Shown: positions 40,373 to 61,412 of the stretch, in pieces
Layout: the number at the start of each line of letters is the position of its first letter
How positions within the stretch are numbered: position 1 is the stretch's first letter
DNA from: Sulfurimonas xiamenensis
GTDB taxonomy: Bacteria > Campylobacterota > Campylobacteria > Campylobacterales > Sulfurimonadaceae
Assembly: GCF_009258045.1 (NCBI RefSeq)
Contig: NZ_CP041166.1
Span: 1,798,001-1,862,000 of the forward strand
Direction: 5' to 3'
Length of the DNA stretch: 64,000 nt
Translations under genes and position numbers: made by a program
The notes under the pieces: model-generated
What the model was told of the DNA's origin: nothing
Databases searched by the model: none
Seen by the model: the letters and a program-made list of their open reading frames with translations, nothing else

Positions 40373-41806
40373 TTATTTTTTATCCTCTATAACATCGGCT
40401 CTTGGGTAGGTAAAAGTAGAGTCTCTAAAAACTACTATCTCATCTTCATGACCAAGAGCATATGCTCGAATCGTAATAGGAACGATAGTATCATGTCTTG
40501 CATCATCAGCAAGTTTGTCATATGTTCTTAAAACTACAATTTTTTTCTTTTTAACTCCGGGAACAACATAAAAAGGCTCTTTTGGTTTAAGTATCTCTAG
40601 CCCTCCTTTTATATCCTTTGGCAGAATAACCTCAAAGTAGTATTTCATCTTCTCATTTTGTGTATTTTGAAGTAAGAACTCATAAGCGTTATCAACAATT
40701 ACTCTTCCATCAGAAGATGTACTGATAGAGTAGAGTCGATTCTCTTTATTTATATTTAAAAGCATATTCTCTTTTTTGCTCCCCATTATAACCATGCCTA
40801 CAGCTAGACCAACAAGCAAAGCGACATAAGCAAGAACTTTGGGGCGGAAGTATTGTGTTTTTCCTTTTTTCTCTATTGTCTCATAATTACTCGACCATGT
40901 AACAAGTGATGGCTTGCCGAGTTTTCCCATAACAACAGTACAAGCATCCACACACTCCAAACAGTTGATACACTCTAACTGCAATCCTTTTCTTATATCA
41001 ATATGGGTGGGGCATACGGTTACACAACTCTCACATGCGGTGCACTCTGCATGAGGTTCAAATGCTTGAAGATCTTTTTGTTTTGTAAATATTTTCTCTT
41101 TGGCTTCATTATAAATATGTCCGCCTCTATTTGTATTATAAAGAGCCATAACAGTATGTTCATCATATAAAACAGATTGAATCCTTGAATATGGACAGAC
41201 ATAAATACAGTAATCTTCTTGTAAAAAAACTATATCATAAATAAGAAAAAGTGCTGATATCAGAAGTGTTCCGACCAAAATCATATGATCAGAAGGATTT
41301 GCCAAATAACTAAAAAAATCTTCAGGAGGAACAAAATACCAGAGTAAATTAGCACTCGCAAGCAATGAAAGAGCAGTCCAAATTAAAATTGCTATAACTT
41401 TTTTTATTTTATTTTCAGTAAGACTCATATCAGGTTCTTGCTGTTTGTTTTTTATTCGTTTTCTAAGTTTTAAAAGTTTTGTTTCTATCAAATCACGATA
41501 AATTACGCGAAATATCGTTTGAGGACAGATCCATCCGCAAAAAACACGCCCGCCCAGAACAGTCATGCCAAAAATACCTAAAAAAAGGATCATAAGTAAA
41601 AATGGCATAAGATATAACTCTTGCATATCAAACTGAACAAACGCAAGATGCAGTTGTAATTTATCAAAACTTAGTAAAAAAAAGTGACTCTCATCTATCT
41701 TTATCCATGGTAATATTAAAGAAACCACTGTTAAAAAAATAAAAAAATAGTATCGCTTTATTCTCCATGGGGTTGGCAGCTTTATATTGGTTTTCTTTTC
41801 ACTCAT
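40373..41806 (-). CDS. ccoG: Cytochrome c oxidase accessory protein CcoG (FixG/RdxA)
   Basis: The 477-residue membrane protein helps mature cbb3-type cytochrome oxidase, probably through copper reduction. Five or so membrane helices frame FCGWICPQ and CIYVCPYSRIQ. Two 4Fe-4S sites follow: CTACESCVTVCP and CINCLECVDAC. The C-terminal third is an Ig-like periplasmic domain. ATG at 41806 has AGGAG 6 bases upstream, better than a start 10 codons earlier. The cbb3 genes are not in the window. It diverges from metH over a 155-base AT-rich gap with no riboswitch seen. Confidence 0.93.
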   Translation of the reverse strand: MSEKKTNIKLPTPWRIKRYYFFIFLTVVSLILPWIKIDESHFFLLSFDKLQLHLAFVQFDMQELYLMPFLLMILFLGIFGMTVLGGRVFCGWICPQTIFRVIYRDLIETKLLKLRKRIKNKQQEPDMSLTENKIKKVIAILIWTALSLLASANLLWYFVPPEDFFSYLANPSDHMILVGTLLISALFLIYDIVFLQEDYCIYVCPYSRIQSVLYDEHTVMALYNTNRGGHIYNEAKEKIFTKQKDLQAFEPHAECTACESCVTVCPTHIDIRKGLQLECINCLECVDACTVVMGKLGKPSLVTWSSNYETIEKKGKTQYFRPKVLAYVALLVGLAVGMVIMGSKKENMLLNINKENRLYSISTSSDGRVIVDNAYEFLLQNTQNEKMKYYFEVILPKDIKGGLEILKPKEPFYVVPGVKKKKIVVLRTYDKLADDARHDTIVPITIRAYALGHEDEIVVFRDSTFTYPRADVIEDKK

Positions 41807-41961
41807 ATCCACTCCTTGACATTTTTCTGCCAACATTATAGCAAATTATTTTTAAAATTATATGTAATAATAATAATTATAACTAATTGAACAATTTTTA
41901 AAAGTGTCGTTTATGCTCAATTTTGATAAAATTTAGCCAATTTATATATTATGGCGATAAC

Positions 41962-44900
41962 ATGACAACAAAAGAGTATATCTTAAAAACTATAAAAAAT
42001 AGGCCTCTTATCATTGACGGGGCGATGGGTACACAGCTTCAACAGCGTGATGAAAAGATCCCAAAAGAGTCTTGGGAGGGCAACGAAGGGTGCAACGAAC
42101 TTCTAAATGTCACATGCCCTGAAGTTTTGAGCGAAATTTTTCACGCCTATCTAACAGCGGGCGCAGACCTTATCACGACAAACACCTTCGGTTCATTTTC
42201 ATGGGTTTTGGATGAGTACGGTATCGGAAATCGAGCCTATGAGCTCACCCGTGCCGGTGCGGAGCTTGTCAAAAAAGAGTGTGCAAAGTTCAGTACTCCC
42301 AAGCACCCGAGATTTGTTCTGGGCTCTATCGGACCGGGCACAAAACTCCCATCACTAGGACATATTACTTATGATGAGATGTACGAGGGGTATACAGAGT
42401 TTTGTCTGGCTTTGATTGACGGCGGAGTAGATGTTTTCTTGCTTGAGACCTGCCAAGACCCGCTTCAGATAAAAGCCGCTCTTCATGCGTGCCAAGAGGC
42501 ATGCAGACAAAGAGAGGTGGAGATCCCGATCATGGTCTCGGTTACCATTGAGTTAAGCGGGACGATGCTGATAGGAACTGACGCCGCTACAATTGCAACC
42601 ATACTAGAGCCTTTTGACATTATCTCGCTTGGATTTAACTGTGGTACAGGGCCTGAACAGGTAGAAAAACATATTAAGACGCTAAGCGAACTGTGGCATA
42701 AACCCATAAGCGTTCACGCAAATGCAGGACTTCCTCAAAACCGTGGAGGGTACACATACTACCCGATGGGTCCCGATGAGTTTGCAGACAAGCAGGAGAA
42801 GTTCTTAAGCTACGACGGTGTCAGTTTTTTAGGCGGCTGCTGCGGAACGACACCTCAACACATCCGCGCCCTTGTGAACAGAGTCTCAAGCATAACACCA
42901 AAAGAGCCCTCTGGGGCTCAAGAGAATGCTCTTGCTTCACTCTTTAACACTGTTTCGCTTACACAAGAGTCATCTGTGCTGCTTGTCGGCGAGAGAAGCA
43001 ATGCAACGGGTTCCAAAGCATTTAGAGAACTTCTTTTGGCAGAGGATTATGAAGGCACACTTAGTGTTGCGCAGCAGCAAGTAAGAGTCGGCGCGCATGT
43101 TTTAGATGTAAGTGTAGGGTTTGCTGGGCGTGATGAAACAAAAGATATGAACCGCGTAATGAGCCTTTATGCTCAAAAGATAGCACTTCCTCTTATGCCG
43201 GACTCCACGCAGACGGCAGCACTTGAAGAAGCTCTAAAGCTTATAGGAGGAAAACCTATCATTAACTCCGTAAATCTTGAAGACGGCATAGAGAAGTTTG
43301 ATGCGGTCTGTTCTTTGGCTAAAAAATTTGGTGCCGCGCTTGTTTGTCTTACCATTGATGAGCAGGGAATGGCAAAAACGGTTGAGCGTAAGCTTGAAGT
43401 CGCAGAGCGCATCTATGAGCTTGCCACCAAAAAGCACGGCATAAGAGCCGAAAATCTGGTATTTGACCTCCTAACATTTACACTTGGAAGCGGTGACGAA
43501 GAGTATGTGAATGCCGGGATAAACACAATCGAAGCGATACGCGAGCTGCGTAAAAGGCACCCTGAAGTCGGAGCAATTTTAGGACTCTCAAACATCTCCT
43601 TCGGACTTGACAAAGATGCGCGTCCATACCTCAACTCTATGTTTTTGCACCACTGCATCGAGGCAGGGCTTACAAGCGTTATTATAAATGTACAACACAT
43701 TATTCCGATTAACAAGATCTCAAAAGAGGATCAGGAGATTTGTGACAACCTTATCTTTAACCGCAAGCCCAACTCTGCGGCTCTTTTTGAATTTATAGAA
43801 CACTTCAGCACAAAAGAGGCGGTTGACAATCAGGCAGTTGATGAGACATATCTTGCTATGAGCGATGAGGAGAAGATCGCTAAGCTTCTTATGGACGGCG
43901 ATAAAGAGAGGATGATTCCGCTTGTTGAAGAGGTACGCCATAAGATCGCACCCGAAAAAATCGTAAACGAGATACTCATTAACGCTATGAAAGTGGTAGG
44001 AGAGCTCTTTGGCTCGGGGCAAATGCAGCTGCCGTTTGTTCTTCAGAGTGCCGAGACTATGAAGAAAACGGTCGATTATCTCAATCCATACCTGCCAAAA
44101 ATTGACAAAAAAGTAGACACGACGCTAATCCTAGGAACGGTTAAAGGCGATGTTCACGATGTAGGTAAAAATCTTGTCGATATCATCCTCTCAAACAACG
44201 GTTATAAAGTCATAAACTTAGGGATAAAAGTAGAACTTGACGATTTTGTTAAAACCCTTAAAGAGTCAAATGCCGATGCTATCGGGATGAGCGGTCTTTT
44301 GGTCAAATCGACACAGGTGATGAAAGAGAATCTTGAAGCGCTCCAGAGAGAAGGGATAAAGATCCCTGTCCTGCTTGGCGGTGCCGCACTTACCCGCTCT
44401 TTCATAGATGATTTTTGCCGCCCTTTCTATGACGGTCCAATCTTTTACTGCAAAGATGCGTTTGACGGCGTAACCTCCATGAGCCGCATCGAGGCTGGAA
44501 ATTTTGATACCGACCTGCACGGCAAAGAGAGCGAAGAGAAGGTCGTAAAGGTCAAAGAGGAGATAGTTATTCCCCCGTTTGAGAAGCTGAAGATGCCTTC
44601 TCGAGATGTTGAAGTGCCTACTCCGCCGTTTTGGGGCAGAAGAGAGCTAAAACTTGCTCCTCATCAAATTGAAATGGCATTTGAGTGGATCAACCATAAG
44701 CTTCTTTTTAAATCTCGCTGGGGTTACAGCTCAAAAGGAATGACAAAAGAGGCATACCAAAAACAGCTTAATGAGATTGTTTGGCCAGCATATGAGAAAC
44801 TTAAAAAAAGATTTATTGAAGAGAAGCTTTTTGAACCAACCATTCTTTACGGATACTGGCCATGCAGAAGCGATGACAACACCCTTTTAATTTTTGACTC

Positions 44901-45453
44901 AAGCGAAGGATATAACTCAGAAGATGAGATAAATCATGAACCGTTAGATAAAGTAATAGGCAGAGCGATAGAGGAGTTCACTTTTCCTAGACAATCCAAA
45001 GAACCTCATCGTGCGCTAAGTGATTTTTTTCACAGAGACAGACATGATGTTGTAGCATTTACATGTGTAAGCGCGGGATCAAAACTAAGCGAAATCGAAC
45101 GAGAAATTTATGATAAAGGAAGCTATACAGAATATTATCAGTTTCATGGACTTGGAGTTGAGCTTGCAGAAGCATTGGCAGAGATAGCTCATAAACAAAT
45201 ACGGCTAGATTTAAATATATCTAAAGGTGAGGGAAACAAACTAAGCGATGTGCAGATGAACAGATACCAGGGTTCTAGATACTCATTTGGATATGCTGCA
45301 TGTCCTGACCTTGAACTAAACCGCCCTCTTTTCAATCTTTTAAAACCTGAAGAGTTCGGAATCGAGCTGAGTGAAACATTTCAAATCCACCCCGAGCAGT
45401 CAACATCTGCTTTAGTGGTATATCATCCAAATGCAACATATTATAATGTATAA
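41962..45453 (+). CDS. metH: Cobalamin-dependent methionine synthase MetH
   Basis: The 1163-residue enzyme transfers a methyl group from methyltetrahydrofolate to homocysteine. Domains in order: homocysteine-binding (DGAMGTQLQ, and zinc cysteines in GFNCGTG and GGCCGTTP); pterin-binding from about 340 (VGERSNATGSKAF, LSNISFG); cobalamin cap and Rossmann unit (VKGDVHDVGKNLVDIIL with the Co-ligand His, MSGLLVKST, LLGGAALTR); and the reactivation domain near 900 to the end (RYSFGYAACPDLE). Sampled rows from about 42001 to 44640 are 50-53 percent G+C, while rows on either side drop to 20-40 percent, so the gene looks mosaic. The ATG has no strong ribosome site. Confidence 0.96.
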   Translation: MTTKEYILKTIKNRPLIIDGAMGTQLQQRDEKIPKESWEGNEGCNELLNVTCPEVLSEIFHAYLTAGADLITTNTFGSFSWVLDEYGIGNRAYELTRAGAELVKKECAKFSTPKHPRFVLGSIGPGTKLPSLGHITYDEMYEGYTEFCLALIDGGVDVFLLETCQDPLQIKAALHACQEACRQREVEIPIMVSVTIELSGTMLIGTDAATIATILEPFDIISLGFNCGTGPEQVEKHIKTLSELWHKPISVHANAGLPQNRGGYTYYPMGPDEFADKQEKFLSYDGVSFLGGCCGTTPQHIRALVNRVSSITPKEPSGAQENALASLFNTVSLTQESSVLLVGERSNATGSKAFRELLLAEDYEGTLSVAQQQVRVGAHVLDVSVGFAGRDETKDMNRVMSLYAQKIALPLMPDSTQTAALEEALKLIGGKPIINSVNLEDGIEKFDAVCSLAKKFGAALVCLTIDEQGMAKTVERKLEVAERIYELATKKHGIRAENLVFDLLTFTLGSGDEEYVNAGINTIEAIRELRKRHPEVGAILGLSNISFGLDKDARPYLNSMFLHHCIEAGLTSVIINVQHIIPINKISKEDQEICDNLIFNRKPNSAALFEFIEHFSTKEAVDNQAVDETYLAMSDEEKIAKLLMDGDKERMIPLVEEVRHKIAPEKIVNEILINAMKVVGELFGSGQMQLPFVLQSAETMKKTVDYLNPYLPKIDKKVDTTLILGTVKGDVHDVGKNLVDIILSNNGYKVINLGIKVELDDFVKTLKESNADAIGMSGLLVKSTQVMKENLEALQREGIKIPVLLGGAALTRSFIDDFCRPFYDGPIFYCKDAFDGVTSMSRIEAGNFDTDLHGKESEEKVVKVKEEIVIPPFEKLKMPSRDVEVPTPPFWGRRELKLAPHQIEMAFEWINHKLLFKSRWGYSSKGMTKEAYQKQLNEIVWPAYEKLKKRFIEEKLFEPTILYGYWPCRSDDNTLLIFDSSEGYNSEDEINHEPLDKVIGRAIEEFTFPRQSKEPHRALSDFFHRDRHDVVAFTCVSAGSKLSEIEREIYDKGSYTEYYQFHGLGVELAEALAEIAHKQIRLDLNISKGEGNKLSDVQMNRYQGSRYSFGYAACPDLELNRPLFNLLKPEEFGIELSETFQIHPEQSTSALVVYHPNATYYNV

Positions 45454-45557: not shown

Positions 45558-46136
45558 ATGAAAAAATTGCAATTACTAATTGTATTATTACTGCTTGGTG
45601 CGAGCACACTATTTGGAGGTGTTTATAGTATTGACGCTTCTCATACAAATGTAGGTTTTTCGGTAAAGCATATGATGATAAGCACTGTAAATGGAGAATT
45701 TCAAAAGTTTGATGGTAACTTTGAGCTTGATGAAAAAAACAATCTTGTTGCATTAAAAGGTGAGATGGATGTTAACTCTATTAATACAAATATTGCAAAA
45801 AGAGATGCACATCTTAAATCAGCTGAGATTTTTAATGCAGAGCAATTTCCAAAAGTAACTTTTATTCTAGATAAAGTAAAAGGCGATAAAGCCTATGGAA
45901 AACTTACTATAAAAAATACAACGAAAGATGTTGTTCTTGACTATGATTTTGGAGGAACTATCACAGATCCATGGGGCAAACAAAGAGCAGGATTAAGCCT
46001 TAGCGGAGAGATTGACAGAAGAGATTATGATATTACATGGAATCAAGCATTAGAAGCAGGTGGCGTTGTTGTAAGCGAAATTGTAAAATTAAATGTAGAG
46101 ATACAGGGTATTTTAAAATCTGAAGATGAATTTTAA
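45558..46136 (+). CDS. YceI-family exported protein
   Basis: The 192-residue precursor has a signal peptide (LLIVLLLLGASTLFGG) and the lipocalin-like YceI fold: YSIDASHTNVGFSVKHMM, GEMDVNSINTNIAKRDAHLKS, FPKVTFI, GKLTIKNTTKDVVLD, GLSLSGEIDRRDYDITW. The family binds polyisoprenoid-type lipids in the periplasm in some species; the ligand here is unknown. AAAGGA precedes the ATG. A strong terminator follows. It is probably monocistronic. Confidence 0.9.
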   Translation: MKKLQLLIVLLLLGASTLFGGVYSIDASHTNVGFSVKHMMISTVNGEFQKFDGNFELDEKNNLVALKGEMDVNSINTNIAKRDAHLKSAEIFNAEQFPKVTFILDKVKGDKAYGKLTIKNTTKDVVLDYDFGGTITDPWGKQRAGLSLSGEIDRRDYDITWNQALEAGGVVVSEIVKLNVEIQGILKSEDEF

Positions 46137-46149
46137 ATTCACCCAATAA

Positions 46150-46186
46150 GGATAGAGAAATTTCAACTCTCTCTATCCTCTTTTTC
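46150..46186 (+). terminator. Terminator after the yceI-family gene
   Basis: GGATAGAGA (46150-46158) pairs with TCTCTATCC (46170-46178), followed by TCTTTTTC. The stem overlaps the end of comM on the other strand. Confidence 0.85.
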
Positions 46187-47684
46187 TGTAACTTAACGCC
46201 TCCAAAATATGGTTTTTATCTATTATATCGCTTCCCTCTAAATCAGCAATAGTAAGTGAAACTTTCTGAATCTTTTTAATACTCCTAAAAGAGAGAGCAA
46301 AACGCGTAACAGCTATATCTAAAATCTCTTTTGCCTCAGCATTTAAAATACAATATTTCTCTATTTGAGCATCACTTAATTTTGCATTAAAATGTTCCTG
46401 TCCTCTCAGTTTTACTCGTTTATGAACTTCAATAACTTGTTTATGCATCTCTTTTGAACTTATACTCGCCCTGTCATTTACATTAGAGTGCTGCATAACA
46501 ACACATATATCTATTCTATCCAAAAATGGATCTGAGAGCCTGTTTTTATATCTCTGTATCTCTAATTCACTGCACCTGCACTCTTTTTGATTATTTAAAA
46601 GATTACCGCATGGACACGGGTTCATAGCGCTTACAAATAAAAAATCGCTTGGATACTCTACTTTTGCATTTACTCTCGATACTCTTATTTTATTATCCTG
46701 CAAAGGCTCACGAAGTGCCTCCAAGACGCTCTTTTGAAAGTGAGGCAGCTCATCAAAAAAAAGCAAACCTCTATGTGCCAGCCCCACTTCACCAATTTTA
46801 GCCCTGCTGCTTCCGCCGCCAAATATACTTGCAGTTGTAGATGAGTGATGAGGAGCTCTATAGCTTCTAAGCGGTTTAAAATTAGGTTCTTTTGCTTCAA
46901 GCGCATCAAGTTTTGCGATATCTAAAATTTCATCACTGCTAAGTGGAGGCAAAATATAGCGAAGCCTTTGTGCGATCATGCTTTTTCCACAACCCGGACT
47001 ACCTTCTAAAAGCAAGTTATGAAATCCGGCAGCACTTATCAATGCTGCTCTTTTGGCAACCTCTTGACCCTTTACATCTAAAAAATCTTCAATATAGTTA
47101 TCATAAAAATAGTACTCTTTATCATTTATTGTATAACTTGGATACTCTATTTTTTTATAAATAATATTTGGCACTGCATTGTTTGGATTTTTTAAAAGTT
47201 CTATAGCTTCATTGAGTGTTTTTACTCCATAAAACTCAATTTTTGGTATGTTAGAAAGCTTCTCCAAACTCTCATAAGGAACAACCGCTTTTTTTATAAT
47301 TTTTTGATTTGCAAGTGAGAGCAGAAGAGGATAAAGCTGTATATTTTCCTTGACAACGCCATCAAGACCGAGTTCTCCAAAAACAAACCACTCACTAAAA
47401 TCATCCTCAATATAATCAAGTGCGATTAATAGTGCGATACTTAGATCAAACTGGCTTCCCTCTTTCTTAACATCACTTGGAGCAAGGTTTATTGTAATGC
47501 GCTTTGGAGGAAATGTAAATTCATTGCTAAGAAGTGCAGATTTAACACGCTCCTTTGCTTCATTTATAGAAGCACTAGCCATCCCAACTACACTAAAAGA
47601 TGGCAAACCTTTTGTAAGAGTAGATTCAACATGCACAACTTTTGCTTCAATGCCTTCGTATGTAGCACAAGAGACCATCTTCAT
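46173..47684 (-). CDS. comM: ComM/YifB-family Mg chelatase-like ATPase
   Basis: The 503-residue AAA+ protein has an N-terminal Lon-like domain (VHVESTLTKGLPSFSVVGM), Walker A LLEGSPGCGKSMIAQRL near residue 220, Walker B LLFFDELPHF, and a cysteine set MNPCPCGNL ... CRCSELEI. ComM is a hexameric helicase that promotes branch migration during natural transformation. It lies 84 bases downstream of def in the tig-clpP-GGDEF-def run. A 6-bp-arm inverted repeat (47746-47760) sits in the gap. Confidence 0.92.
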   Translation of the reverse strand: MKMVSCATYEGIEAKVVHVESTLTKGLPSFSVVGMASASINEAKERVKSALLSNEFTFPPKRITINLAPSDVKKEGSQFDLSIALLIALDYIEDDFSEWFVFGELGLDGVVKENIQLYPLLLSLANQKIIKKAVVPYESLEKLSNIPKIEFYGVKTLNEAIELLKNPNNAVPNIIYKKIEYPSYTINDKEYYFYDNYIEDFLDVKGQEVAKRAALISAAGFHNLLLEGSPGCGKSMIAQRLRYILPPLSSDEILDIAKLDALEAKEPNFKPLRSYRAPHHSSTTASIFGGGSSRAKIGEVGLAHRGLLFFDELPHFQKSVLEALREPLQDNKIRVSRVNAKVEYPSDFLFVSAMNPCPCGNLLNNQKECRCSELEIQRYKNRLSDPFLDRIDICVVMQHSNVNDRASISSKEMHKQVIEVHKRVKLRGQEHFNAKLSDAQIEKYCILNAEAKEILDIAVTRFALSFRSIKKIQKVSLTIADLEGSDIIDKNHILEALSYRKRG

Positions 47685-56958: not shown

Positions 56959-57954
56959 ATGAGCCAAATGAGCTATAAAGATGCCGGTGTTGACATAGAT
57001 GCCGGCAATAGTTTTGTAGAAAATATCAAACCCTTAGTAAAATCAACAAAAATTCCAGGTGTTCTTGGTGGAATTGGCTCTTTTGCAGGAGCATTTGAAC
57101 TTCCTAGCGGCTTCAAAGAGCCGGTAATGCTTGCAGCAACTGACGGAGTTGGAACAAAACTAAAACTTGCTATTGACTCAGGTATACATAACACTGTCGG
57201 AATTGATTTAGTTGCCATGTGCGCAAACGATCTTATCTGCAATTTCGGTACTCCCTCTTTCTTTTTAGATTACTACGCAACAGGAAAACTTGATGTAGCT
57301 ACTGCAACAAATGTTGTTGCCGGAATTGCTGAGGGATGTAGAAGAAGTGAGTGTGCGTTAATTGGTGGAGAAACAGCAGAAATGCCGGGTATGTACTCTC
57401 ATGATGATTATGATTTAGCAGGTTTTGCAGTAGGTGTTGCAGAAAAAAGTGAAATGGATAGAGTTTCTCTTGTAAAAGCAGGACATAAGTTGATAGCACT
57501 TCCAAGTTCAGGTTTGCATTCAAACGGATTTTCTTTAGCAAGAAAAGTTCTTTTTGAAAAAATGAATCTAAATTTTAATGATGATTTTGATGGAAAACCA
57601 CTTATCGAAACCCTCCTAGAACCTACAAAAATATATGTAAAAACATTTAAAGAGCTAAAAAATAAAATTGTTGCTCTTGCCCATATAACCGGGGGAGGAA
57701 TAGTTGAGAACTTGCCTCGTGTATTACCGGAAAATTTAAGAGCTGAAATAAGAAAAGATGACATAAGAGTTTTACCAATTTTTGAACTAATGTCACAATA
57801 TGTAGATACAGATGAAATGTATAGAGCATTTAATATGGGTATCGGTATGATTTTGGTTGTCAAAGAAGAAGATGTTGATACTGTTCTTGCTAAATGTGAC
57901 GGTTATTTAATTGGTGAAATTAAAGAAGGAAAAAGAGAAGCTAAATTAATATAA
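56959..57954 (+). CDS. purM: Phosphoribosylformylglycinamidine cyclo-ligase
   Basis: The 331-residue enzyme closes the imidazole ring in purine synthesis. It begins MSQMSYKDAGVDIDAGN, with GVGTKLKLA, DLVAMCANDLI, IGGETAEMPGMY, SGLHSNGFSLAR and AHITGGGIVENLPRVLP. ATG at 56959 is chosen because TTGGAG ends 6 bases before it; a TTG at 56947 is part of that site. Its message ends at the hairpin at 57967. Confidence 0.96.
   Translation: MSQMSYKDAGVDIDAGNSFVENIKPLVKSTKIPGVLGGIGSFAGAFELPSGFKEPVMLAATDGVGTKLKLAIDSGIHNTVGIDLVAMCANDLICNFGTPSFFLDYYATGKLDVATATNVVAGIAEGCRRSECALIGGETAEMPGMYSHDDYDLAGFAVGVAEKSEMDRVSLVKAGHKLIALPSSGLHSNGFSLARKVLFEKMNLNFNDDFDGKPLIETLLEPTKIYVKTFKELKNKIVALAHITGGGIVENLPRVLPENLRAEIRKDDIRVLPIFELMSQYVDTDEMYRAFNMGIGMILVVKEEDVDTVLAKCDGYLIGEIKEGKREAKLI

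Positions 57955-58414: not shown

Positions 58415-61412
<2,998 letters not shown>

Follow-up and report, generated by a model that had tools for sequence, protein, structure and literature searches.

The cobalamin-dependent methionine synthase gene (metH) of Sulfurimonas xiamenensis is, with high confidence, a chimera that arose through a single homologous replacement by DNA of a G+C-richer congener, a sister lineage of the related genome G005. Comparison with relatives demonstrates the mosaic ancestry of the gene, the direction of the transfer and the approximate breakpoints. About four fifths of metH was replaced and the last fifth is native, a clear example of ordinary exchange between species. 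The gene lies in a stretch of 64,000 nucleotides, referred to here as the window, of the S. xiamenensis genome (1.916 Mb, one contig; G000 in the comparisons). The features of the locus are collected in Table 1.

Table 1. Features of the metH locus in window coordinates, with the evidence for each.
Feature	Position	Strand	Evidence
metH, cobalamin-dependent methionine synthase	41962..45453	+	translation, own-genome search, Pfam
Imported G+C-rich segment, spanning the homocysteine, folate and cobalamin domains and the first activation-domain residues	41962..44740	+	identity, GC3, changepoints, trees/AU
Native tail (GC3 0.28), covering most of the activation (reactivation) domain	44741..45453	+	identity near background, tree
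Probable right breakpoint zone	44739..44798	+	maximum-likelihood changepoints; 3SEQ-like scan
Probable left breakpoint zone; its 44 bases match G005 exactly	41962..42005	+	alignment, identical runs
Native upstream neighbour, CcoG/FixG-like ferredoxin protein	40373..41836	-	76.5% nt to G005, Pfam
Native downstream neighbour, YceI-like	45558..46136	+	78.5% nt to G005, Pfam

Integrity and composition of the gene

Translation from the ATG at 41962 gives 1163 amino acids in an intact frame, in agreement with the unbroken frame reported in the initial annotation. The listed open reading frame starts at a TTG at 41923, an upstream extension of metH that falls outside the matches of most relatives. 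Pfam matches (S-methyl_trans, Pterin_bind, B12-binding_2, B12-binding and Met_synt_B12) cover the homocysteine, folate, cobalamin and activation domains, the last of which starts at 44683 after conversion to window coordinates. Every domain is present in the usual order of cobalamin-dependent MetH, and the gene differs from an ordinary MetH in the mixed ancestry of its coding sequence, while the architecture is unchanged. The chimeric enzyme presumably acts as an ordinary methionine synthase and has gained no new function.

A search of the genome itself returned one copy of metH, which rules out conversion by a paralogue. The CcoG/FixG-like upstream neighbour is colinear in G005, G004 and isolate Kmv11, and the gene order of the neighbourhood is the same in G005 and G004. 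Colinear neighbours and an unbroken frame rule out an insertion or mobile element, and the background identity of both neighbours rules out import of a whole operon. An assembly join of two organisms is unlikely, as the genome is one complete contig with a contamination value of 0.18 and native sequence flanks the tract within one gene.

The G+C-rich core with sharp edges described in the initial annotation is real. Its eight 60-base counts were recounted and all proved exact (0.20, 0.50, 0.533, 0.50, 0.533, 0.383, 0.40 and 0.317). The G+C content of 42001-44660 is 46.6%, compared with a mean of 34.1% (s.d. 3.1) for 2660-base windows up to position 57000. The highest such window without metH overlap, up to the same position, reaches 39.0%. 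GC3 is 0.46 (0.461) over codons 1-926 of metH and 0.28 over the last 237 codons, and 0.246 when pooled over 40 other window genes. The genomic background comprised the window and 20 sampled stretches. In a sample of 373 open reading frames of the genome, the internal GC3 step of metH is the strongest among the 107 genes of at least 400 codons (z 5.3), while high GC3 as such is not peculiar to metH, being at least 0.41 in about 16 other frames.

The same step was compared in 88 metH genes from the genus and its near relatives. Among these genes, S. xiamenensis has the largest difference in GC3 between core and tail (core minus tail, +0.17), 6.3 s.d. from the rest. The initial annotation had named a shared composition in close relatives as the outcome that would speak against replacement; a similar step occurs in none of the 87 relatives' genes (mean -0.015, s.d. 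0.030). That no transfer took place, and that codon selection, expression or constraint along the gene enriched the core in G+C, is therefore very unlikely. Such an origin would fit the somewhat raised GC3 of metH in several relatives (for example 0.455 in G005, against 0.392 pooled over the compared genes), but composition within a single lineage does not account for the identity step and the tree conflict presented below.

Identity, phylogeny and breakpoints

Sequences of metH were collected from 60 related genomes, 80 GTDB loci and 135 genomes of the genus; Kmv11 corresponds to both G087 and locus L031, which were equated through matching contig coordinates. Against G005, the core of metH (codons 1 to ~926) is 89.4% identical in nucleotides and 96.9% in amino acids, whereas the tail is 79.7% and 89.0% identical, respectively. 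The tail value is close to the 78.1% nucleotide identity of 40 colinear genes pooled, and none of 38 colinear genes exceeds 87.1%. Together with the G005-like GC3 of the core, these values uphold the proposed replacement by a higher-G+C relative. The identity step alone is silent on which side of it is foreign, so the core could in principle be native, with the tail and neighbours replaced or diverging faster. We consider this extremely improbable, because all 40 colinear window genes resemble the tail rather than the core and because the core has a GC3 that is foreign to the S. xiamenensis genome. Additionally, G005 and Kmv11 are 85.8% identical in the core, 85.2% in the tail and 82.3% in the flanking genes, without a step, which identifies S. 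xiamenensis as the recombinant.

Trees of the two parts, each built from 22 near sequences, are in reciprocal conflict, each rejecting the grouping of the other, rather than sharing the single tree that the initial annotation had set against its proposal. The core joins S. xiamenensis to G005 with support of 100/100, followed by Kmv11 (100/100), and rejects a grouping of G005 with Kmv11 that excludes S. xiamenensis (p-AU 1.7e-5). The tail joins G005 to Kmv11 (98/98) and rejects S. xiamenensis with G005 (p-AU 0.0012); a trio of S. xiamenensis, G005 and Kmv11 is only marginally disfavoured in the tail (p-AU 0.085). In the trees of flanking genes, S. xiamenensis falls within the wider group and has no special closeness to G005.

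Maximum-likelihood changepoints were placed at 44798 against G005 (log-likelihood gain 25.4, permutation maximum 5.5) and at 44739 against Kmv11 (gain 23.2, permutation maximum 6.8), the top two of 3741 metH pairs. Locus L085, which dominated the all-pairs test at first, was left out of these pairs because its 5' end probably carries a frameshift artefact. A 3SEQ-like scan placed the right break mostly at 44781-44917; when G005 was combined in turn with nine surrogates for the native parent, the break was supported with seven of them and not significant with two. The scan is not decisive alone, since a control with L031 as child and L002 (G005) and L003 as parents likewise hit the permutation limit. 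By G+C alone, the right edge would fall earlier than by identity, near codon 878.

The alignments thus place the right breakpoint near 44739-44798, probably 19-38 codons into the Pfam activation domain and hence just inside it, and a break exactly on the domain boundary is not supported. The initial annotation had set the edges at 42001-44660, with breakpoints inside the gene and a native reactivation domain. The right edge is indeed internal, although identity moves it ~80-140 bases further 3', and most of the reactivation domain is native, except for its first 19-38 codons, which are imported. At its 5' end, metH is identical to G005 over 44 bases, and the upstream intergenic DNA is unlike G005. 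The left edge therefore appears to lie at the start codon or very near it, within these ~44 bases.

Direction, donor and mechanism of the transfer

The GC3 of the core (0.461) fits G005 metH (0.459) and not the genes of S. xiamenensis (0.246), which sets the direction of transfer into S. xiamenensis. Since the closeness of the two cores is symmetric, it would equally suit a transfer from the S. xiamenensis lineage into G005; that direction has almost no credibility given that the core, tail and flanks of G005 are all near Kmv11 and that in GC3 the core agrees with G005 and not with S. xiamenensis.

Polarised third-position changes argue for the same history. On the S. xiamenensis branch the core shows a balance of the two directions (43 GC>AT, 42 AT>GC; likewise 50:46 in G005) and the tail an AT bias (32:14; Fisher p 0.04), suggesting that the separate history of the core passed mostly in a G+C-richer genome and that most of its 10.6% divergence from G005 arose in the donor lineage. 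The import would therefore be recent relative to the divergence of the donor lineage.

The closest sampled metH to the core is that of G005 (89%), followed by Kmv11 (87%) and G004 (82%), and none closer than 89% was found among the 135 genomes of the genus and the 80 GTDB loci. The fourfold-site divergence of the core (0.376) falls within the range of strongly conserved window genes (0.32-0.39 for four of them); none of the sampled candidates for a donor is thus near-identical to the segment. With the nearest sampled metH at only 89%, the donor and the date of import are approached indirectly. The donor group is known from this nearest core, and a near-identical donor would be a supporting feature rather than a required one. 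These sequence comparisons are best explained by a donor from a sister lineage of G005 that no sampled genome represents.

The anatomy of the locus, with colinear neighbours and a single copy, shows homologous replacement in place. A tract of ~2.8 kb from a G+C-richer Sulfurimonas species recombined over the native metH, with one crossover at or near the conserved gene start and the other ~19-38 codons into the activation domain, leaving the order of genes, the frame and every MetH domain intact. The presumed route is natural transformation with free DNA, followed by RecA-type recombination; DprA-like and ComEC-like domains or genes were found in the genome, and downstream of metH there is a ComM-like AAA gene. 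The latter, a ComM/Mg-chelatase-like gene at 46173-47684, directly follows the YceI-like neighbour.

Probable exchange beyond this gene and known counterparts

The event is a new instance of a well-known process and is mechanistically ordinary. Mosaic housekeeping alleles with intragenic breakpoints are familiar from Campylobacter, where they stem from introgression involving C. jejuni and C. coli, species ~15% diverged (PMC3139442). Both cases belong to the same phylum, and in both of them homologous recombination between species replaced a portion of a housekeeping gene in place; the present case differs in concerning another genus, metH, one genome rather than populations, a background divergence of ~22% and a donor deduced from a sister lineage. 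Among the papers searched, none was a dedicated study of homologous recombination and horizontal gene transfer in Sulfurimonas. Our results document exchange within a core metabolic gene between Sulfurimonas species ~22% diverged, and they make metH unsafe as a single-gene marker in this genus.

Two other G+C-rich patches of the sampled genome, with gene names read from sequence, likewise exceed the background in identity to members of this group of relatives. An mnmE-like gene (L135:6563-7903; G000:C1:406563-407903; GC3 0.41) is 88% identical in nucleotides to G004, G005 and G087, against 77-80% to four other relatives, and is probably another import from this group. Hydrogenase-maturation-like genes (L144:1074-5345; G000:C1:1301074-1305345; GC3 0.42-0.45) are up to 92% identical to G087 and only ~70-74% to G005, a region that is patchily shared and probably exchanged. 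Thus, exchange with this group seems general rather than special to metH.

Strong identity steps inside metH also occur in the pairs L065/L066, L038/L058, L025/L026 and L078/L089, suggesting further metH mosaics in the genus; L038 and L058 form a pair in the tail tree and not in the core tree. Across all pairs without L085, the changepoints are scattered over several zones and do not make a case for a breakpoint hotspot. It is improbable that metH is a recurrent recombination target whose breakpoints favour the cobalamin/activation junction, with activation domains swapped as modules, for example matching local flavodoxin-type reductants.

Two further sets of frames stand out by composition. 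The open reading frames at L142:2341-5410 and L137:15588-17309 have a GC3 of ~0.49-0.52, against a sampled mean of 0.27, and are possible islands. The frame at 58545-59003 of the window (54.9% G+C) recurs at L137:7456-7914 with its length and composition unchanged; it is probably a spurious frame within a ribosomal RNA operon.
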